Source of the DNA: an uncultured Veillonella sp.
GTDB taxonomy: Bacteria > Bacillota > Negativicutes > Veillonellales > Veillonellaceae
Direction of reading: 5' to 3'
Assembly: GCA_934216375.1 (NCBI GenBank)
Contig: CAKQBP010000015.1
Location: forward strand, 1 to 13,684
DNA length: 13,684 nucleotides
Position numbers and translations under genes: made by a program. Under the pieces are notes generated by a model, which was given only the letters and a program-made list of their open reading frames with translations, did not search any database and had not been told where the DNA came from. Position 1 is the stretch's first letter. Each line of letters opens with the position of its first letter. Below are positions 392 to 10,976 of the stretch, in pieces.

Positions 392-1345
392 TTATACGAT
401 TTCAATAAGACGTTGTGCTTTACGAATAGACATGATAGCTTCGTTCATTACTGTTTGCACTATAGTATGAGCAGGTTCAATAGTAGTAAGTCGGTTCAAA
501 CCCTGTCCAACTTGTACGGCACCATTTACAACATCACCATCGATAGCAGCACGTTTGTTAGTGCCTTGGGACATTTTGGTGCGTTCTTCAGGCGTAGTAA
601 CACCATCTGTTTCGGCAGCTAAGTAACGCGTAGTGAATTCGTTTTTTAAGCTACGTACTCCACCGTGACCGGAGAGCAGACCCGTTACAACAGAGTCTGT
701 ATCTGTGGCTTTGATAATTGCTTCTTTCATATTTATGTGGGCTTGGCATTCTTCAGCTAACAAAAAACGGGAACCCATTTGTACACCTTCAGCACCCATC
801 AACAATGCTGCTGCAATACCACGACCATCTACGATAGCGCCTGCTACAACAACAGGAATGGAAATCTCAGGTAAAATATTTTCCATCAAGGACATGGTTG
901 TTTGGCTACCAATATGTCCACCAGCTTCCATACCCTCAATAATAATTGCATCAGCACCAGCCTCTTCAATGCGTTTAGCAAGTTTTAGAGATGGAACAAC
1001 AGGGATAACTTTAATGCCTGCATCTTGCAATGGTTTAATATATGGTACAGGATTGCCTGCTCCAAGTGTTACAAATGCAGGCTTTTCTTCAATGATAATA
1101 TCCACTAGTTCGTCTTTATTGGGAGCCATTAACATAAGGTTGACTCCGAAAGGCTTATCCGTTAAGTTTTTACAGGCACGAATTTCGTTGCGCGTCCATT
1201 CTGCATCACGACCACCAAGAGCAATTACACCTGTAGCACCTGCATTAGCTACGGCAGCAACTAGTTTGTGTTCAGATACCCAAGCCATAGCACCTTGGAT
1301 GATAGGGTATTCGATTTGTAAAAGTTGTGTTAACGCTGTTCTCAT
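392..1345 (-). CDS. FabK-family enoyl-ACP reductase-like flavoprotein (paralog 1)
   Basis: This 317-residue TIM-barrel flavoprotein belongs to the FabK/nitronate monooxygenase superfamily. It matches FabK along its length: N-terminal LLQIEYPIIQGAMAW, DKPFGVNLMLMAP at about 64-76, LGAGNP at about 94-99, KVIPVVPS at 112-119, and EGMEAGGHIG with H144, the position of the catalytic histidine of pneumococcal FabK. VVVAGAIVDGRG (about 165-176) and GVQMGSRF are the phosphate-binding elements for FMN. FabK enzymes reduce trans-2-enoyl-ACP using NAD(P)H and FMN. A closer FabK lies in the main fab operon at 5738, so this copy may be a second reductase with a different chain-length preference or may act on another substrate; its true reaction is inference. 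QGAMAW and GATGVIALGG differ from the usual QGGMAW and GGLGIIG. AGGAGG precedes the ATG by 6 nt. It probably heads an operon with the downstream carbonic-anhydrase-like gene. Confidence 0.88.
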   Translation of the reverse strand: MRTALTQLLQIEYPIIQGAMAWVSEHKLVAAVANAGATGVIALGGRDAEWTRNEIRACKNLTDKPFGVNLMLMAPNKDELVDIIIEEKPAFVTLGAGNPVPYIKPLQDAGIKVIPVVPSLKLAKRIEEAGADAIIIEGMEAGGHIGSQTTMSLMENILPEISIPVVVAGAIVDGRGIAAALLMGAEGVQMGSRFLLAEECQAHINMKEAIIKATDTDSVVTGLLSGHGGVRSLKNEFTTRYLAAETDGVTTPEERTKMSQGTNKRAAIDGDVVNGAVQVGQGLNRLTTIEPAHTIVQTVMNEAIMSIRKAQRLIEIV

Positions 1346-3150: not shown

Positions 3151-3711
3151 ATGAGTCGGTTAAAGAAGCAAGAGCGCCAGAAGCAGTTACAAGAAAAACT
3201 GAATATTACGCCATTTCTTACTGATGAAGAATTGGCAACACACTTTGGTGTAAGTGTGCCAACAATTCGTCTCGATCGACTAGAATTGGGTATTCCTGAA
3301 TTGCGTGAACGCATTCGTGTTATGGCTACAGGTCAATCACATGAAATGGCAGAACATGTATCATATGAAGTGGTTGGCGAATTGATTGATGTCACCGAGG
3401 GGCACCAAGCATTATCTATGTTGCGTACTACGGCTGATATGGAAGATCAATTCGGATATGTAGAACCGCAGTATTTATATGCTCAAGCAAATTCCCTTGC
3501 AAAAGTGGTTATGGGGACGACTGTTTGCTCTGCGGAAGTTGGAAATATAAAATATAAGAACCCGGTAGGATCTGGTACTAATTTGGTAGCGAAAGCAGAA
3601 ATTGTTCGTCGCCGAGGTAATAAGTTCTTTATTTGGGTTATAATAAGAGATAAAATAAAAGAAGTGTTTCGCGCAAAATTTATTATGGAATCCGTAGAGA
3701 ATAGGGTGTAA
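3151..3711 (+). CDS. fapR: FapR, malonyl-CoA-responsive repressor of lipid synthesis
   Basis: At 186 residues it is nearly the length of Bacillus subtilis FapR (188). The N-terminal helix-turn-helix is strongly conserved: PFLTDEELATHFGVSVPTIR (21-40) followed by LDRLELGIPELRERI. A linker leads to the hot-dog effector domain (about 70-186), marked by YAQANSLA at 110-117 and GTNLVAKAEI at 142-151. In Bacillus, FapR represses fatty acid and phospholipid genes until malonyl-CoA binds. Here the two residues before the QYLYAQAN segment are E105-P106, where the Bacillus protein, as I recall it, has R106-G107; R106 contacts the malonyl group. Ligand response may therefore differ. AGGTGG lies 5 nt before the ATG. 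The gene leads the operon, with plsX 3 nt downstream and a candidate operator in front. Confidence 0.93.
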   Translation: MSRLKKQERQKQLQEKLNITPFLTDEELATHFGVSVPTIRLDRLELGIPELRERIRVMATGQSHEMAEHVSYEVVGELIDVTEGHQALSMLRTTADMEDQFGYVEPQYLYAQANSLAKVVMGTTVCSAEVGNIKYKNPVGSGTNLVAKAEIVRRRGNKFFIWVIIRDKIKEVFRAKFIMESVENRV

Positions 3712-3714
3712 ATT

Positions 3715-4743
3715 ATGAAAATTGCAATAGACGCCATGGGTGGCGACTTTGCTCCAATGGAGACTGTACTTGGATCCATTGAAGCCGTACGAGCAAATCA
3801 ACACATTGAAGTGGTGCTCGTCGGCGATGAGCAGCAAATTTTTGATATATTAGAAGCTAATAATGAAGCTAAGAATCCACGTATTTCTGTACATCATGCT
3901 AGCCAGGTAATCGGTATGGATGAACATCCCGGTCAAGCATTGCGCAAGAAAAAAGATGCATCTGTTGTGGTCGCTACTTCGTTGGTTCGGGATAATCGTT
4001 GTGATGCTGTAATTGCTCCAGGTAGTACGGGAGCTGCTGTTGCAGCGGCTTTGTTTGGGCTTGGTCGCATTAAAGGTATTGATCGCCCTGTCATTGCAAC
4101 TCCAATGCCAACGGTAAGTGGTATAACAGTTATGTTAGACTCTGGTGCAAATTCTAATTGTAAACCTAAACACCTTGTACAAGGAGCTTTAATGGGGTCT
4201 GAATACGCTAAGCTTTTATTAGGAAAAGAAAATCCTACTGTGGGATTGTTAAATATTGGTGAAGAGGCCACAAAGGGGAACGATGTCGTATTGGCGACGT
4301 ATCCAATCTTGGAGGGTATGAAGACTATCAATTTTAAAGGAAATATTGAAGGTCGCGATATTCCTAAAGGTGCCGTTGATGTTGTCGTATGTGATGGATT
4401 CGTAGGCAATGTGGTACTTAAATTTGCGGAAGGTTTAGTAACAGGCCTTACGCAATTAGTAAAGGATAGCATCATGGCAGGAAGTATTTTCGCCAAGATA
4501 GGAGCTATGCTTGTAAAGCCAGCTTTGAAAAAGATGGCAAAACGTTTGGATCACACGGAAAATGGTGGTGCTCCGCTCTTAGGAGTTAATGGGGTATTTA
4601 TGATTGCTCATGGCAGTTCTAAAGCAAAAGAAATAAAAACTGCTATTGAAATTGCTAGTGATTTAGTAGAGCGTAAAATTATTCAACACATAAGAGAAAC
4701 GATGGATATTGAAGGAGCCTTAAAGTATGACTATGATGAATAA
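3715..4743 (+). CDS. plsX: Phosphate acyltransferase PlsX
   Basis: PlsX converts acyl-ACP and phosphate to acyl-phosphate, the acyl donor for PlsY in making 1-acyl-glycerol-3-phosphate; it works at the inner face of the membrane. The 342-residue length and the motifs are standard: MKIAIDAMGGDFAP at 1-14, VGDEQQI, DEHPGQALRKKKDAS, APGSTGAAVAAALFGLGRIKG, MLDSGAN, LLNIGEEATKGND, FKGNIEGRDI, DVVVCDGFVGNVVLKF and GGAPLLGVNG. An AGGGTG Shine-Dalgarno sits 6 nt before the ATG inside the end of fapR. The last 17 nt overlap fabH in a different frame, suggesting translational coupling. The fapR-plsX pairing is the Bacillus arrangement; plsX-fabH is the E. coli one. Confidence 0.97.
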   Translation: MKIAIDAMGGDFAPMETVLGSIEAVRANQHIEVVLVGDEQQIFDILEANNEAKNPRISVHHASQVIGMDEHPGQALRKKKDASVVVATSLVRDNRCDAVIAPGSTGAAVAAALFGLGRIKGIDRPVIATPMPTVSGITVMLDSGANSNCKPKHLVQGALMGSEYAKLLLGKENPTVGLLNIGEEATKGNDVVLATYPILEGMKTINFKGNIEGRDIPKGAVDVVVCDGFVGNVVLKFAEGLVTGLTQLVKDSIMAGSIFAKIGAMLVKPALKKMAKRLDHTENGGAPLLGVNGVFMIAHGSSKAKEIKTAIEIASDLVERKIIQHIRETMDIEGALKYDYDE

Positions 4744-5722
4744 ACCTGTAGGAATCATTGGTACTGGGAGCTTCCTTCCTGACAATGTAGTAACAAACTT
4801 TGATCTTGAAAAAATGGTTGATACCAATGATCAATGGATTAGAGAGCGTACGGGTATAGAAGAACGACGCATTGCACCGGAAGGTATGAATACATCCTAT
4901 ATGGCGACCGAGGCAGCAAAAAAAGCTATGCAAATGGCTAGTGTCTCTGCAGAGGATATCGACATGATTATCTTTGCTACCTTAACACCAGATATGATTA
5001 TTCCTTCGGCAGCTTGTGTATTGCAAGCAAACTTAGGAGCTAAAAACGCTGCAGCCTATGATTTACAAGCGGCATGCTCTGGGTTTGTATATGGATTGAT
5101 TACTGCCGCTAGTTATATTAGCTCTGGTATTTATAAAAAAGTACTCGTTGTGGGGGCGGAAATTCTTTCTCGTCGAGTAAACTGGAATGATCGTGGTACA
5201 TGTATCCTCTTTGGTGATGGTGCTGGGGCTGCAGTAGTATCTGAAGTACCTGAAGGCTATGGCATTAAAGGTATTGACATGGGCGCCGATGGCACTGGAG
5301 GATCAGCGCTTTGCATTCCTGCAGGTGGCACTGCTGTAGTAGCAAATGATCAACGCGTAGAAGAGGGCTTAACATTTATTCATATGGATGGCCCTGAAGT
5401 ATATAAATTTGCCGTTAAAACGATGGGACGTACGGTTTTAAAATCCTTAGAACGTGCTGATATGGAGTTAAATGAATTAGATTACTTCATTCCTCATCAA
5501 GCGAATATTCGTATTATTGATTCGGCAGCCAAACGTTTACATCTGCCGATGGAAAAAGTTTTTGTTAATTTACATAAGTATGGTAATACATCTGCCGCGT
5601 CTGTAGCGATTGCACTTGATGAAGCTAATCGCGAGGGACGTTTCAAACGCGGTGATAATGTTGCGTTTGCAGGATTTGGTGCAGGCCTAACATGGGCAAG
5701 CCTGGTCTTGAAATGGTATTAA
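4727..5722 (+). CDS. fabH: 3-oxoacyl-ACP synthase III
   Basis: FabH starts fatty acid chains by condensing an acyl-CoA primer with malonyl-ACP. The 331-residue protein has the thiolase-fold catalytic triad: C117 in QAACSGF, H257 in IPHQAN and N287 in YGNTSAAS. The conserved opening GIIGTGSFLPDNVVTN, TNDQWIRERTGIEERR, GDGAGAAV and the closing GFGAGLTWAS agree with FabH. Primer choice (acetyl versus branched or other short acyl-CoA) cannot be read from sequence by eye. The start at 4727 has AAGGAG 9 nt upstream; ATGs at 4733 and 4736 are alternative but are more distant from it. It overlaps plsX by 17 nt and its stop codon overlaps the Shine-Dalgarno of fabK. Confidence 0.97.
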   Translation: MTMMNKPVGIIGTGSFLPDNVVTNFDLEKMVDTNDQWIRERTGIEERRIAPEGMNTSYMATEAAKKAMQMASVSAEDIDMIIFATLTPDMIIPSAACVLQANLGAKNAAAYDLQAACSGFVYGLITAASYISSGIYKKVLVVGAEILSRRVNWNDRGTCILFGDGAGAAVVSEVPEGYGIKGIDMGADGTGGSALCIPAGGTAVVANDQRVEEGLTFIHMDGPEVYKFAVKTMGRTVLKSLERADMELNELDYFIPHQANIRIIDSAAKRLHLPMEKVFVNLHKYGNTSAASVAIALDEANREGRFKRGDNVAFAGFGAGLTWASLVLKWY

Positions 5723-5737
5723 GGAGGACACATCAAG

Positions 5738-6682
5738 ATGATTAAGACTGACATTTGTGATTTATTGCAGATTGAGTATCCAATCTTTCAAGGTGGCATG
5801 GCTTGGCTCGGTACTGCAGAATTAGCGGCAGCCGTTTCTGAAGCTGGTGGACTTGGGATTATTGGTGCTGGTCATATGCCTCCTGATATTTTCCGTAATG
5901 AAATCCATAAATTAAAAGAGCGCACTAGTAAGCCTTTTGGCTGTAATATCATGCTCATGTCTCCATTTGTAAAGGAGGTTATGGAAGTAGTTGTGGAAGA
6001 ACGTGTTCCTGTTATCACTACGGGTGCAGGTAATCCTGGTGTTTATGTTCCCGCTTTGAAAGAAATTGGCACAAAAGTTATTCCTGTAGTTGCATCAGTA
6101 TTACTAGCAAAGCGCTTATTACGTGGCGGTATTGATGCAATTATTGCTGAAGGTACAGAGTCTGGTGGTCATGTAGGTGATATTACAACTATGGCATTAA
6201 TTCCTCAAGTAGTTGATGCTGTAGATGTACCAGTTATTGCTGCCGGAGGTATTGCAGATGGTCGTGGTATGGCTGCGGCATTTGCATTAGGTGCTAAAGC
6301 TGTACAAATGGGGACACGATTCGTATTATCCGAAGAATGTATTGCCCATGAAAATTATAAAAATGCTGTATTGAAAGCAAAAGATCGTGCTACAGTTATG
6401 ACTGGTTTAACAACAGGTCATCCTGTACGTATTATAGATAATGCGTTAGCTCATAAATATAAATCCCTTGAATTCAGTGGTGGATCTAAAGAGGAATTGG
6501 AAGCATTAGGTGCTGGTACACTTCGTTTAGCTGCTATTGAGGGTAATGTAAAAGAAGGTTCTGTAATGATCGGTCAAATTTCTGGTATGTTAACAGATGT
6601 TAAACCATGTGAAACTATCATTAAAGATATTATGACTGAAGCTGAAACTGTGATTAAGAATCTTCAAGGTCTTAGTAAATAA
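5738..6682 (+). CDS. fabK: Enoyl-ACP reductase II (FMN-dependent FabK)
   Basis: FabK reduces trans-2-enoyl-ACP in the last step of each elongation cycle, using FMN and NAD(P)H; it replaces FabI and gives triclosan resistance in other species. The 314-residue sequence matches pneumococcal FabK closely: LLQIEYPIFQGGMAWLG, GGLGIIGAG, KPFGCNIMLMSPFV, TTGAGNP, KVIPVVAS, EGTESGGHVG with the catalytic-position H145, PVIAAGGIADGRG and AVQMGTRFV. Of the three paralogs here this is the best candidate for the main reductase, because it sits between fabH and fabD in the operon. AAGGAGG precedes the ATG by 10 nt, and fabD follows after 11 nt. Confidence 0.95.
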   Translation: MIKTDICDLLQIEYPIFQGGMAWLGTAELAAAVSEAGGLGIIGAGHMPPDIFRNEIHKLKERTSKPFGCNIMLMSPFVKEVMEVVVEERVPVITTGAGNPGVYVPALKEIGTKVIPVVASVLLAKRLLRGGIDAIIAEGTESGGHVGDITTMALIPQVVDAVDVPVIAAGGIADGRGMAAAFALGAKAVQMGTRFVLSEECIAHENYKNAVLKAKDRATVMTGLTTGHPVRIIDNALAHKYKSLEFSGGSKEELEALGAGTLRLAAIEGNVKEGSVMIGQISGMLTDVKPCETIIKDIMTEAETVIKNLQGLSK

Positions 6683-6693
6683 GGAGGCCCCTA

Positions 6694-7635
6694 ATGAAAA
6701 CGGCATTTGTTTTTCCTGGTCAAGGTTCTCAAAAAGTAGGCATGTTACAAGATTTGTATAATGCGTACCCTATTGTGAAACAACGTTTTGAAGAAGCTGA
6801 CGAGGCACTTGGTTATTCTATCAGTAAATTATGCTTCGAAGGTCCTGATACAGAGCTCGTTAAAACAGCAAATACACAACCAGCTATTTTGACTGCATCC
6901 GTAGCTTGTTATGAAATTCTAAAAGAACAAGGCTTTACGCCTGACATCGTAGGCGGACATAGTCTTGGTGAGTATAGTGCTCTGGTAGCAGCCGGTGTAT
7001 TGAACTTTAAAGACGCAGTATATGTAGTTCATAAACGCGGTGAATATATGCAAGAAGCTGTGCCATTGGGTAAAGGCGCTATGGCAGCAATTTTGGCATT
7101 ACCTCGTGAGCAAGTTGTAGAAATTTGTGAAGAAGTAAATGCTTCTGTAGGTTCTGTACAAGCAGTTAACTTCAATTGCCCTGGACAAATCGTTATTGCC
7201 GGTGAAACTGCAGCGGTGGAAACAGCAGCTGAAAAAATGAAAGAAGCAGGAGCAAAACGCGCAGTAATGCTTCCGGTAAGTGCTCCATTCCACAGCCGTT
7301 TGATGGAACCCGCAGCTCTTCGGTTAAAGGAAGAGTTGGATAAGATCCAAGTGTGTGATGCACAAATTCCTGTAGTTGCAAATGTTACTGGCAAGATTTT
7401 GACTAATGCAAATGACATTAAAGAGTCCTTAGTCACTCAAGCCGCTAACCCTGTCTTGTGGGAAGATTGTGTAGCTGAAATGGTAAACTTTGGCGTTACT
7501 CACTTTGTTGAAGTGGGGCCTGGGAAAGTACTTACAGGTTTTACTAAAAAGATCAACAAAGATATGGAATTAGCCAATGTTGAAGACATTGCATCCTTAG
7601 AGAAAACGCTTGAATTTTTGAAGGGGGTTCGATAA
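6694..7635 (+). CDS. fabD: Malonyl-CoA:ACP transacylase
   Basis: FabD moves malonyl from CoA to the phosphopantetheine arm of ACP, supplying the extender for FabH and FabF. The 313-residue protein has FVFPGQGSQKVGM (5-17), the nucleophile S90 in GGHSLGEYSALVAAG, R115 in HKRGEYMQ, and H200 in VSAPFHSRLM, which together form the usual catalytic set. NFNCPGQIVIAG and EVGPGKVL are further family motifs. AAGGAGG lies 6 nt before the ATG and overlaps the fabK stop. Only 1 nt separates its stop from the fabG start. Confidence 0.97.
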   Translation: MKTAFVFPGQGSQKVGMLQDLYNAYPIVKQRFEEADEALGYSISKLCFEGPDTELVKTANTQPAILTASVACYEILKEQGFTPDIVGGHSLGEYSALVAAGVLNFKDAVYVVHKRGEYMQEAVPLGKGAMAAILALPREQVVEICEEVNASVGSVQAVNFNCPGQIVIAGETAAVETAAEKMKEAGAKRAVMLPVSAPFHSRLMEPAALRLKEELDKIQVCDAQIPVVANVTGKILTNANDIKESLVTQAANPVLWEDCVAEMVNFGVTHFVEVGPGKVLTGFTKKINKDMELANVEDIASLEKTLEFLKGVR

Positions 7636-7636
7636 A

Positions 7637-8380
7637 ATGCATTTAGAGGGTAAAGTAGCCATTGTAACTGGCGCATCCCGTGGCATTGGTCGCGCTGTAG
7701 CTATCAATCTAGCACAATCTGGTGCTGATGTTGTTGTAAACTATAGCGGTAGCGAAGGTGCAGCACAAGAAACTGTTGAAGCTGTACAAGCGTTAGGCCG
7801 AAAAGCCATTAAATTTAAAGCTAATGTAGCAAATGCTGATGAAGTTGCTTCCATGGTGGAAGAAGCTCATAAAGAATTTGGTCACATTGATATTCTCGTG
7901 AATAATGCGGGGATTACGCGTGACGGTTTGTTAATGCGAATGAAAGACGAAGATTTTGATGCTGTTATCGATATCAACCTTAAAGGTGTATACTTGGTAA
8001 CTAAAGCAGTATCTAAAATCATGATGAAACAACGTTCTGGTCATATTATCAACATGACATCTGTTGTAGGTGTTATGGGGAATGCTGGTCAAACTAACTA
8101 CGCTGCTTCTAAAGCGGGCGTAATTGGTTTTACTAAGTCCTGTGCTAAAGAATTGGCTAGCCGTGGTATTACAGTTAATGCTATTGCTCCAGGCTTTATC
8201 AACACAGATATGACCGATGTATTACCAGAAAAAGTTAAAGAAGCTATGGTTACTGAAATTCCATTGGGCCGTATGGCTGATGCTGAAGAAGTAGCAACAG
8301 TAGTAACATTCCTTGCTAGCGATTTTGCTAATTATATTACGGGTCAAGTCATCAATGTTGATGGTGGCATGGTAATGTAG
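7637..8380 (+). CDS. fabG: 3-oxoacyl-ACP reductase
   Basis: FabG reduces 3-oxoacyl-ACP to 3-hydroxyacyl-ACP with NADPH. The 247-residue short-chain dehydrogenase has the cofactor motif TGASRGIG at 11-18, NNAG at 89-92, and the catalytic tetrad N114, S142, Y155 and K159 (YAASKAG). GRMADAEEVATVVTFLASD and ITGQVINVDGGMVM at the end are typical of FabG rather than other dehydrogenases. The GGGGG-type ribosome site lies in the last codons of fabD, 9 nt before the ATG. The adjacent fabD and acpP fit a conserved fabD-fabG-acpP block. Confidence 0.97.
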   Translation: MHLEGKVAIVTGASRGIGRAVAINLAQSGADVVVNYSGSEGAAQETVEAVQALGRKAIKFKANVANADEVASMVEEAHKEFGHIDILVNNAGITRDGLLMRMKDEDFDAVIDINLKGVYLVTKAVSKIMMKQRSGHIINMTSVVGVMGNAGQTNYAASKAGVIGFTKSCAKELASRGITVNAIAPGFINTDMTDVLPEKVKEAMVTEIPLGRMADAEEVATVVTFLASDFANYITGQVINVDGGMVM

Positions 8381-8431: not shown

Positions 8432-8662
8432 ATGAACACTTTCGATAAAGTTAAAGCAATCGTTGTGGAACAATTAGGCGTTGATGAAGCTGAAGTTACC
8501 ATTGATTCTACATTCATCGACGACTTAGGCGCTGACTCCTTAGATATCGTTGAATTGATCATGGCATTTGAAGAAGAATTCAATGTTGAAATCCCTGACG
8601 ACGTTGCAGAAAAAATTAAAACCGTTAAGGATACAGTAGAATATATTGATTCTGCTAAATAA
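8432..8662 (+). CDS. acpP: Acyl carrier protein
   Basis: A 76-residue acidic helical protein that carries acyl chains on a 4'-phosphopantetheine attached to S36 in the [12 protein letters not shown] motif. Length and the ending [20 protein letters not shown] are standard for ACP. An in-frame TTG at 8411 is rejected as start: AAAGGAGGTG at 8414-8423 is an almost perfect anti-16S match and lies 8 nt before the ATG at 8432. Strong initiation fits the need for abundant ACP. The gene is set apart from its neighbours by 51 nt upstream and by a strong hairpin downstream, so its transcript level may exceed that of the genes after it. Confidence 0.98.
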
Positions 8663-8681
8663 GCTGTAAAGCTAACAATTC

Positions 8682-8723
8682 AACCGAACGGGAGGCCGAG
8701 TGGCCTCCCAACCGGTTTTATTT
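8682..8723 (+). terminator. Hairpin between acpP and the FabX-like gene (partial terminator or mRNA stabiliser)
   Basis: GGGAGGCC (8690-8697) pairs perfectly with GGCCTCCC (8702-8709) around GAGT. After a symmetric AAC/AAC internal loop, AACCG (8682-8686) pairs with CGGTT (8713-8717), followed by TTATTT. The weak, interrupted T-tract suggests partial termination, and the next gene's Shine-Dalgarno starts only 3 nt later with no visible promoter between, so some read-through is needed. The same hairpin could protect the acpP mRNA 3' end. Confidence 0.75.
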
Positions 8724-8739
8724 ACAGGAGGATTTGATA

Positions 8740-9696
8740 GTGAAGCTCCCTGAACTTCGCATTGGGAATCTAGTGGCCAAAGTACCTATTATTCAAGGTG
8801 GTATGGCGATTAGATTGTCTACAGCTCGCTTGGCAGCAGCCGTTGCAAATGAAGGTGGTATCGGCCTTATTGCGGCATCGGGCTTGCCTTTCGATGAATT
8901 ACGATACGAAATACAATTAGCTAGAAAATTATCACCTACGGGTATTATTGGTATAAATGCGATGGTAGCAGCAACTCAATTTGCTGGTCTAGTAAAGACT
9001 GCCATCGAAGAAGGCATTGATCTTGTAGTAGCAGGTGCTGGTTTTTCAAGAGATATGTTCGCAATGGGCAAAGAGTCTGGTACTCCTATTGTACCAATTG
9101 TTTCGTCCGCAAAATTAGCTCGCATTTCTGAAGGTTTAGGTGCTGCAGCTGTAATCGTAGAAGGCTGTGAAGCTGGTGGACACCTGGGAACGGATCGTTC
9201 AGCTCGAGAAATCGTTCCCGAAGTTGTAGCAGCGGTAAAAAATATTCCAGTAATTGCTGCTGGTGGTGTTCTAGATGGCCGTGATATCGTTGAAATGTTA
9301 AAAATCGGCGCTAGTGGTGTTCAAATGGGTAGCCGTTTTGCTGCTTCTGATGAATGTAATGCATCTGATGAATTGAAAAAAATGTATGTACGAGCTACAA
9401 ACCCTGAGGATATAGTATTGATTCAAAGTCCTGTTGGTTTGCCTGGTCAAGCAATAAAAAACAAATTTGCTGAATCTGTTTTAGATGGTACTGTAGCGCC
9501 TCCAACGGTGTGTGATAACTGTTTAAAACATTGTTCCCATAAATTCTGCATTATCCGTGCTCTTTCTCGTGCACAACAAGGTGATGTGGAAACGGGGTTG
9601 GTGTTCTCTGGCAATAATATGAGAAAAGTCGATAAGATTATGCCAGTTAAAGATATCTTTGCACAATTGAAACAGCAAGTAGCAGAGATTGATTAA
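8740..9696 (+). CDS. FabX/UfaA-like flavoprotein with four-cysteine cluster (FabK/nitronate monooxygenase superfamily)
   Basis: A 318-residue TIM-barrel flavoprotein with VPIIQGGMAIRLS, GGIGLIAASG, VAGAGFS, EGCEAGGHLG (H148), VIAAGGVLDGRD and GVQMGSRF. Unlike the two FabK-type paralogs it carries C258, C261, C265 and C270 in CDNCLKHCSHKFC, a likely iron-sulfur site, then IIRALSRAQQGDVETGLVFSG. Automatic annotation would say nitronate monooxygenase. Its place between acpP and fabF, and the cysteine cluster, instead suggest the group of Neisseria UfaA and Helicobacter FabX. FabX contains FMN and [4Fe-4S] and converts a saturated acyl-ACP intermediate to the cis-unsaturated one. That role is inference. 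Start: AGGAGG at 8726-8731 is 8 nt from the GTG at 8740 but only 2 nt from a TTG at 8734, so GTG is chosen. It lies in the same operon as fabF, 35 nt upstream of it. Confidence 0.85.
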   Translation: MKLPELRIGNLVAKVPIIQGGMAIRLSTARLAAAVANEGGIGLIAASGLPFDELRYEIQLARKLSPTGIIGINAMVAATQFAGLVKTAIEEGIDLVVAGAGFSRDMFAMGKESGTPIVPIVSSAKLARISEGLGAAAVIVEGCEAGGHLGTDRSAREIVPEVVAAVKNIPVIAAGGVLDGRDIVEMLKIGASGVQMGSRFAASDECNASDELKKMYVRATNPEDIVLIQSPVGLPGQAIKNKFAESVLDGTVAPPTVCDNCLKHCSHKFCIIRALSRAQQGDVETGLVFSGNNMRKVDKIMPVKDIFAQLKQQVAEID

Positions 9697-9731: not shown

Positions 9732-10976
9732 TTGGAAAAACGTGTAGTAATTACTGGCTTAGGGGCAGTGACTCCTGTAGGTATCGGTAAAGAGAACTTC
9801 TACAATGCGTTATTGGCAGGTCAATCTGGTATTGGGCCGATTACACGCTTTGACGCATCTGACTATGCAACACGCATTGCGGGTGAAGTAAAAGATTTTG
9901 ATATTACAAACTATGGGGTAGACAAAAAAGAAGCTCGTCGTATGGACCGTTCTGTAGAATTTGCTATCGGTGCAGCTGTTCTTGCTTGTGAAGATGCTGA
10001 TCTTGATTTAGATAAAGCAGATTTAGATCGCTGTGGTACTGTAGTTGGTACAGGTATAGGCGGCATTGACTCTATCCATGAGGTGTATGAAACATTATTC
10101 GAGAAAGGTCCTGGCCGCGTAAGTCCATTTGCAGTACCTATGATGATTGCAAATATGACATCTGCACGCGTATCTATTCGCCTTGGTCTTAAAGGTCCAG
10201 TTATTACCGACGTAACTGCTTGTACTTCTGGTACAAATGCGATTGGTGATGCATTCCGTATCATCCAACGTGGTGATGCTGACGTGATGTTTGCTGGTGG
10301 TACTGAAGCTGCAGTATCTCCGGCTGCTGTGGCTGGTTTTGCGGCTATGAAGGCTATGTCTACACGCAATGACGAGCCAACAAAAGCGTCCCGTCCATTT
10401 GACCGTGACCGTGATGGTTTCGTAATGGGTGAAGGTTCTGGTATCGTAGTTCTTGAAGAATTAGAACACGCAAAAGCACGCGGTGCACATATCTATGCTG
10501 AAGTTGTGGGTTATGGTAGTAATGGTGATGCTTACCATATCACTGCACCAGCTCCAGGTGGTGTTCAAGCTCGTAAATGTATGGAATTAGCAATTAAAGA
10601 TGCAGGTATTGATCCTAAAGACGTTAACTACATCAATGCTCATGGTACATCTACTGGCCTTAATGACCAAAATGAAACATTGGCTATTAAAGAATTGTTC
10701 GGCGATCACGCTAAAAATATCGCTGTTAACTCTACTAAATCCATGACAGGTCACTTATTGGGGGCTGCTGGTGCTATTGAAACTATCGTAATGGCAATGG
10801 CGATTGAAACTGGTAAAGTTCACCCTACAATTAACTGTGACAATCCTGATGAAGGTTTGGATCTGGACTATGTTCGTGAAGGCGCACGTGAACTCCAAGT
10901 AAAATGTGCACTTTCTAACTCTTTCGGTTTTGGTGGTCATAACGGTACACTTTGCATTCGCCGTTATGAAGCTTAA
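9732..10976 (+). CDS. fabF: 3-oxoacyl-ACP synthase II
   Basis: FabF condenses malonyl-ACP with growing acyl-ACP and in many bacteria elongates the unsaturated C16 intermediate. The 414-residue protein has the Cys-His-His triad: C164 in TACTSGTNAIG, H304 in NAHGTSTGLND and H341 in TGHLLGAAG, with K336 nearby. The N-terminus MEKRVVITGLGAVTPVG and the end NSFGFGGHNGTL match FabF. The start codon is TTG, supported by the N-terminal alignment and by AGAGGTGG 5 nt upstream; no ATG or GTG offers a better fit. Its stop shares one base with the rnc start (TAATG), so the two are translationally coupled. Confidence 0.97.
   Translation: MEKRVVITGLGAVTPVGIGKENFYNALLAGQSGIGPITRFDASDYATRIAGEVKDFDITNYGVDKKEARRMDRSVEFAIGAAVLACEDADLDLDKADLDRCGTVVGTGIGGIDSIHEVYETLFEKGPGRVSPFAVPMMIANMTSARVSIRLGLKGPVITDVTACTSGTNAIGDAFRIIQRGDADVMFAGGTEAAVSPAAVAGFAAMKAMSTRNDEPTKASRPFDRDRDGFVMGEGSGIVVLEELEHAKARGAHIYAEVVGYGSNGDAYHITAPAPGGVQARKCMELAIKDAGIDPKDVNYINAHGTSTGLNDQNETLAIKELFGDHAKNIAVNSTKSMTGHLLGAAGAIETIVMAMAIETGKVHPTINCDNPDEGLDLDYVREGARELQVKCALSNSFGFGGHNGTLCIRRYEA

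Follow-up and report, generated by a model that had tools for sequence, protein, structure and literature searches.

How Veillonella, which makes unsaturated fatty acids, might introduce the cis double bond without oxygen is the question raised by a stretch of 13,684 nucleotides from an uncultured Veillonella sp. (contig CAKQBP010000015.1; the whole stretch is called the window here). Within its fatty acid synthesis (fab) operon, between acpP and fabF, lies a gene for which nitronate monooxygenase is the usual label and which is here called X. An earlier note on this DNA had read X as an enzyme resembling Helicobacter FabX and Neisseria UfaA and had proposed it as a route to unsaturated fatty acids. 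The window is Veillonella DNA, X being 99% identical to a protein of V. rogosae (locus L099) and equally to its counterpart in the closest comparison genome, G001. Judged from its sequence, there is a reasonable probability that X is a small flavoprotein of FabX type that belongs to type II fatty acid synthesis and makes cis-3-enoyl-acyl carrier protein (ACP) for unsaturated fatty acids, and it probably helps to make unsaturated membrane lipids without oxygen. Support comes from the cluster ligands, the active-site residues, a fold match, the clade to which X belongs, its operon slot, and its exchange with a longer FabX type.

With respect to the cluster ligands, X has cysteines at positions 143, 206, 258, 261, 265 and 270, the last four of which form exactly the pattern C-x2-C-x3-C-x4-C, which arises in 4 of 100,000 shuffles of the protein. 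There is no such cluster in the two FabK-type proteins of the window, the FabK of the operon having its cysteines at positions 7, 69, 201 and 291 and the second copy at 58 and 200. Relatives of X were assigned by score and length to a short type, to which X belongs, and a long type. Every one of the 50 short-type rows of the alignment (46 distinct, four being near-identical repeats) has all four cysteines, and so has every one of the 44 long-type rows (43 distinct, with one such repeat), as compared to none of 21 FabKs, and since they are kept in all short and long rows the pattern is conserved and not due to chance. The cluster described in the earlier note, missing from both FabK-type copies, is therefore confirmed as regards pattern and cysteine positions. 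Together with the four ligands, the residues Glu175, His182, Gln240, Asn99 and Phe339 (FabX numbering) are invariant in the 50 short rows, and X has the counterparts H148, E141, N73, Q195 and G176 of the catalytic His, the Glu and the residues for flavin mononucleotide (FMN), which are also common to FabK. In 21 of 21 FabKs the four cluster cysteines and Phe339 are missing, while Glu175, His182, Gln240 and Asn99 are shared. At the position of Ser273, which holds His182 in FabX, 44 short rows have Ser and six have Thr; at that of K152, which takes part in ACP docking in FabX, 49 of the 50 have Lys or Arg.

X reaches 196.7 bits with the NCBI FabK model TIGR03151, the cut-off being 453.1, and thus falls outside the FabK equivalog. 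Its best solved relatives by sequence are the FabK of C. difficile and then H. pylori FabX, with the C-terminal cysteine region aligned, and its top fold match is H. pylori FabX (PDB 7e1q), at 37% identity over the structural alignment. In a tree computed with IQ-TREE from the 88 rows that remained when 122 had been thinned, three short-type genes re-found as nitronate monooxygenase hits being left out, the short and long types together with FabX are separated from the FabK and nitronate monooxygenase rows, 30 in all (support 100 in the Shimodaira-Hasegawa-like approximate likelihood ratio test, SH-aLRT); the nitronate monooxygenase rows are genome hits to PF03060 and not assayed enzymes. This split persists in a tree based on the barrel only (85 rows). 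In the full tree H. pylori FabX sits among the long proteins (support 98) and the short type is the sister of the long/FabX clade on all columns (support 93, L135 counted as short); in the barrel-only tree the short proteins do not form one clade. Kinship with FabX and separation from FabK and nitronate monooxygenase, as claimed earlier, are borne out by the split and the conserved ligands, with X standing beside the FabX clade and outside any group with the nitronate monooxygenase rows.

The position of X directly 5' of fabF, likewise part of the earlier note, is in accordance with the order of the open reading frames (ORFs) and with the FabK and FapR models. On the plus strand the operon reads fapR-plsX-fabH-fabK-fabD-fabG-acpP-X-fabF-rnc, where plsX, fabH, fabD, fabG, acpP, fabF and rnc are what we take these genes to be from their sequences. 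The surroundings of 38 short-type loci (from the 95 short-type genomes of the phylum) and 19 long-type loci were read, as were those of the best 80 of at least 545 confirmed loci in a second set, 41 of these 80 being short-type; one long contig is common to both sets (L057, L166). The order acpP-X-fabF recurs in 16 of the 38 and in 22 of the 41 short-type loci and spans, in the loci read, Negativicutes, Heliorestis, Desulfosporosinus and WOR-1. In 37 of 79 short-type loci there are no fab genes, i.e., no tblastn match to FabH, FabD, FabF, AcpP or PlsX of the window, in the stretch examined, which often ended with the contig; in L077 and L078 X is divergent from and adjoins fabH, and L115 and L139 are interrupted or truncated. 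Short-type genes were also seen in Bacillaceae and Paenibacillaceae (L127, L129-L134), with no fab operon genes in the stretch examined. The long type occupies the slot between acpP and fabF in 0 of 58 loci, 8 of the 58 lying in stretches with fab genes, and in four Clostridium loci the long gene lies about 550-650 bases ahead of fabH on the same strand.

The two types replace each other. Of 299 genomes of the phylum 95 have the short type, 45 the long type and one (G079) an intermediate, and none has both among the matches listed, although a weak second type could escape this survey, in which part of the candidates were scored in many genomes (e.g., 7 of 14) and matches of at least about 168 bits were listed. 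On rechecking G279 is long, and removal of G079 reduced the long count from 46 to 45. With 46 long-type genomes, 14.6 co-occurrences would be expected against the 0 observed, a figure that ignores kinship, which confounds the exclusivity. The intermediate itself (L256) has a short body, CLKxC and nine residues ahead of the last cysteine. In the order of Veillonella, the short type is found in 28 of 28 genomes of the window's own family (f1), in 15 of 16 of the Megasphaera family (f4, identified by proteins 94-96% identical to most Megasphaera-labelled proteins compared) and in one of four of family f3, the other three having neither type. The small f3 genomes G030 (L223, L224), G033 and G039 have FabK and neither type of X nor FabM. 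Family f2 has the long type in 11 of 12 genomes and the short type in none, its long proteins showing 68-85% identity with the Dialister succinatiphilus one (L152). In L152 and in four of the five f2 loci read (L221, L222, L227 and L228, not L220) fabF follows acpP with no X between them, and the long gene lies beside the fab operon, divergent from fapR; in family f20 the same position beside fabH is taken by a short gene in L077 and L078 and by a long one in L053. As each type takes the other's place beside the same operon, the two most likely do the same work.

Among the known systems, H. pylori FabX (HP0773) shares with X the TIM barrel, the C-terminal [4Fe-4S] domain (predicted in X) with its four ligands, the FMN residues, the catalytic His, and the F339 and S273 positions. 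However, X has 318 amino acids (aa) as compared to 363 in FabX, its ligands are spaced x2-x3-x4 and not x3-x3-x11, and its host is anaerobic, whereas FabX is reported to use O2, oxidising decanoyl-ACP and then isomerising the product in an oxygen-independent step (PMC8626469). The homologue UfaA of Neisseria gonorrhoeae (NGO1024), which is likened here by its published description, is stated to be indispensable for making unsaturated fatty acids under anaerobic conditions, the electron acceptor being unknown (PMC11300592). Cluster cysteines and FMN residues are also reported for the homologue of Fusobacterium nucleatum (C4N14_08920), which is 50.8% identical to H. pylori FabX and thus a closer relative of it than X (PMC11091888). 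FabK, the enoyl-ACP reductase II, has no cysteine cluster, forms a separate clade and differs from X at the S273, L325, F339 and Y277 positions. The trans-2-decenoyl-ACP isomerase FabM probably has the same product as X, cis-3-enoyl-ACP, but belongs to the unrelated crotonase family (PF00378) and is a separate gene in Veillonella relatives.

Kinship and conserved residues suggest that X binds FMN in its TIM barrel, and its small C-terminal domain would hold a predicted [4Fe-4S] cluster on C258, C261, C265 and C270. As in FabX, a medium-chain acyl-ACP might enter a tunnel ending at the cluster, where His148 and FMN would handle the hydrogens at C2 and C3 of decanoyl- or undecanoyl-ACP, an alternative substrate being trans-2-enoyl-ACP made by FabZ; the cis-3-enoyl-ACP released would then be elongated by FabF to unsaturated fatty acids. 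Because an obligate anaerobe cannot use oxygen as acceptor in the way H. pylori does, the reduced FMN and cluster may pass their electrons to a carrier, or X may act as a redox-neutral trans-2/cis-3 isomerase. For all of these, cofactors, reaction, direction and electron acceptor, we infer from relatives what X would do.

Several observations, on ACP docking, on Megasphaera and on FabM, weigh against such a role. At the position of Arg164, the loss of which is reported to lower FabX activity about 80-fold (PMC8626469), 50 of 50 short rows have a gap, and the helix alpha7 and chink that dock ACP in FabX (K152, R160, R164, T130) are not reproduced as a whole in X, where R160 corresponds to Leu133 and T130 to Arg104; the T130/N131 positions are an invariant Arg/Asp in the short type. 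Going by these residues, ACP docking by X must therefore differ from that of FabX, and X, lacking an Arg164 counterpart and being of a sister type in the full tree, is a variant, shorter sister type and not FabX itself.

In Megasphaera, the evidence keeps alive the alternative that X may be an enoyl-ACP reductase, in which electrons, e.g., from ferredoxin, would pass via the [4Fe-4S] cluster to FMN and reduce trans-2-enoyl-ACP, replacing or working beside the NAD(P)H-using FabK. In 0 of 16 Megasphaera-type genomes is there a match in the FabK range, the best matches other than X reaching at most 38.4 bits, and fabK is missing from both operons of this family that were read (L062, L226). In 60 relatives there is no FabI match at E<=1e-25 and no FabV/TER (PF12241) match, but the controls of these searches were silent, so that absence of FabI, FabL and FabV is not claimed. 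An annotation of M. cerevisiae from 2026 calls the 2-enoyl-ACP reduction step 'notably absent', yet names a FabG-labelled protein that resembles FabI (PMC13400456). In F. nucleatum, overexpressed FabX is reported to raise the minimum inhibitory concentration (MIC) of a FabK inhibitor to 3.1 ug/mL from 0.4 ug/mL with the empty vector, although in the authors' view FabX cannot replace FabK (PMC11091888). Given that Megasphaera has X and no FabK was found, and that F. nucleatum FabX eases FabK inhibition, a reductase role of X is a live rival; it nevertheless seems unlikely to us, as fabK is also present in most acpP-X-fabF loci whose stretch extends far enough, FabX itself has been characterised as a dehydrogenase, and the His found at the Y277 position in 21 of 21 FabKs is replaced by Leu, Met or Tyr in proteins of the X type. 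Quite unlikely, in our estimate, is a combination of both activities, by which the short type would be a reversible bifunctional anaerobic enzyme whose ferredoxin-fed cluster reduces trans-2-enoyl-ACP and diverts it to cis-3 at C10/C11, serving in Megasphaera both as enoyl-ACP reductase and as source of the double bond.

The statements on FabM and FabZ refer to the nearest genomes and not to the window's own, G001 (71% of sampled words shared) serving as stand-in. It had been argued in the earlier note that X would supply the double bond, the locus containing no FabA and no FabM; as regards the locus this is true. However, a search of G001 for fabA, fabM and desaturases found FabM, a crotonase passing the equivalog NF050134 with 431 bits (cut-off 400), and neither FabA nor a desaturase. 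FabM exceeds this cut-off in all genomes of the window's family but G017 (27 of 28), in none of 32 from the order's three remaining families and in only 2 of 299 genomes of the phylum (G001 and G351), and a horizontal gain of FabM in Veillonella relatives is possible. A single gene of the FabA/FabZ family is present in each of 59 of 60 relatives and none in one incomplete genome; in G001 it is a FabZ beside genes reading as lpxC and lpxA and does not pass the FabA models. Desaturases over the cut-off occur in 14 of 299 genomes of the phylum, with no match in G001, G031 and G034; the short-type genomes G082 and G278 carry one as well. As FabM is present in 27 of 28 genomes of its family, X is probably not the sole route in this Veillonella, where it would work beside FabM. 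The argument by elimination thus fails here, but is not affected for the remaining 94 short-type genomes of the sample (those of Megasphaera and Selenomonas type included), none of which shows FabM over the cut-off; crotonases below it occur in many sampled short-type genomes. What is left of the proposed FabX/UfaA-like route is supported by kinship, ligands, separation from FabK and nitronate monooxygenase, recurrence of acpP-X-fabF and exchange with the long FabX. The same FabM matches would fit the notion that the double bond in Veillonella comes from FabM, with X acting at another acyl-ACP step, e.g., a back-oxidation tuning the saturated/unsaturated ratio. Yet X is found in 28 of 28 family members, the FabM-less G017 included, and is far commoner than FabM in the phylum (95 versus 2 of 299), which argues for a role independent of FabM and makes this notion doubtful indeed. 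That X might be a genuine nitronate monooxygenase for nitroalkane detoxification, as the Pfam superfamily PF03060 and the names of its relatives suggest, is rejected as highly improbable, since it lies apart from the nitronate monooxygenase rows in both the full and the barrel-only tree.

As to the neighbouring features, the hairpin between acpP and X has no Rfam match at the gathering threshold in five sources and is possibly an acpP 3' attenuator or stabiliser. A stem TCCCGT...CGGGA/G follows acpP in 26 of 38 acpP-X-fabF loci, among others in Negativicutes, Heliorestis and Desulfosporosinus, and not in Veillonella. The second FabK-type protein of the window groups with the sole FabK-type protein found in D. 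succinatiphilus (L190), which suggests that its kind can serve as enoyl-ACP reductase.

Table 1. Positions of X, its parts and neighbouring genes in the window, and of a FabM-type gene in a related locus.
Feature	Position	Strand	Remarks
X, short FabX-type protein, 318 aa	8740..9696	+	GTG start; FMN and [4Fe-4S] predicted; usual label nitronate monooxygenase
AGGAGG, likely ribosome-binding site of X	8726..8731	+	read directly
acpP-X spacer with strong hairpin, core 8690-8709	8663..8739	+	-28.4 kcal/mol, z -4.03
Codons C258-C270 (C-x2-C-x3-C-x4-C), predicted [4Fe-4S] ligands	9511..9549	+	align with FabX C300, C304, C308, C320 (PMC8626469)
His148 codon of X	9181..9183	+	aligned with FabX catalytic His182
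fapR	3151..3711	+	NF003359 204.7 bits, cut-off 183
plsX	3715..4743	+	ORF; named from its sequence
fabH	4727..5722	+	ORF; named from its sequence
fabK (enoyl-ACP reductase II), no Cys cluster	5738..6682	+	TIGR03151 479.9 bits, cut-off 453.1
fabD	6694..7635	+	ORF; named from its sequence
fabG	7637..8380	+	ORF; named from its sequence
acpP	8432..8662	+	ORF; named from its sequence
fabF	9732..10976	+	ORF; named from its sequence
Second FabK-type protein, no Cys cluster	392..1345	-	TIGR03151 370.9 bits, below cut-off 453.1; tree
FabM-type gene of Veillonella relatives	L217 5332..6123	-	none over the FabM cut-off in the order's other families

FabX homologues in anaerobes were already known, and the published census of FabX used a threshold of over 50% identity (PMC8626469); being 32-37% identical to FabX, X would therefore have been missed by it. 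Among the papers listed on FabX, UfaA and related topics, no title or abstract opening mentions a short FabX type; homologues of this kind may be reported in Isabella and Clark 2011. While the FabX kind itself is known, what is new here is that a compact type sits in the fab operon, that it and the long type replace each other, and that it occurs together with FabM. Megasphaera in turn raises the question of which enzyme reduces enoyl-ACP there. In a study of C. acetobutylicum, the cis double bond was ascribed to 'a novel and unknown enzyme' (PMC2700279). Of the two interchangeable FabX types, the short one is encoded within the fab operon in many Negativicutes, in one Heliorestis and in several Desulfosporosinus, and the long one next to it in Dialister-type genomes and four Clostridium loci; both are now named candidates, under a misleading database label, for the origin of the clostridial cis double bond.
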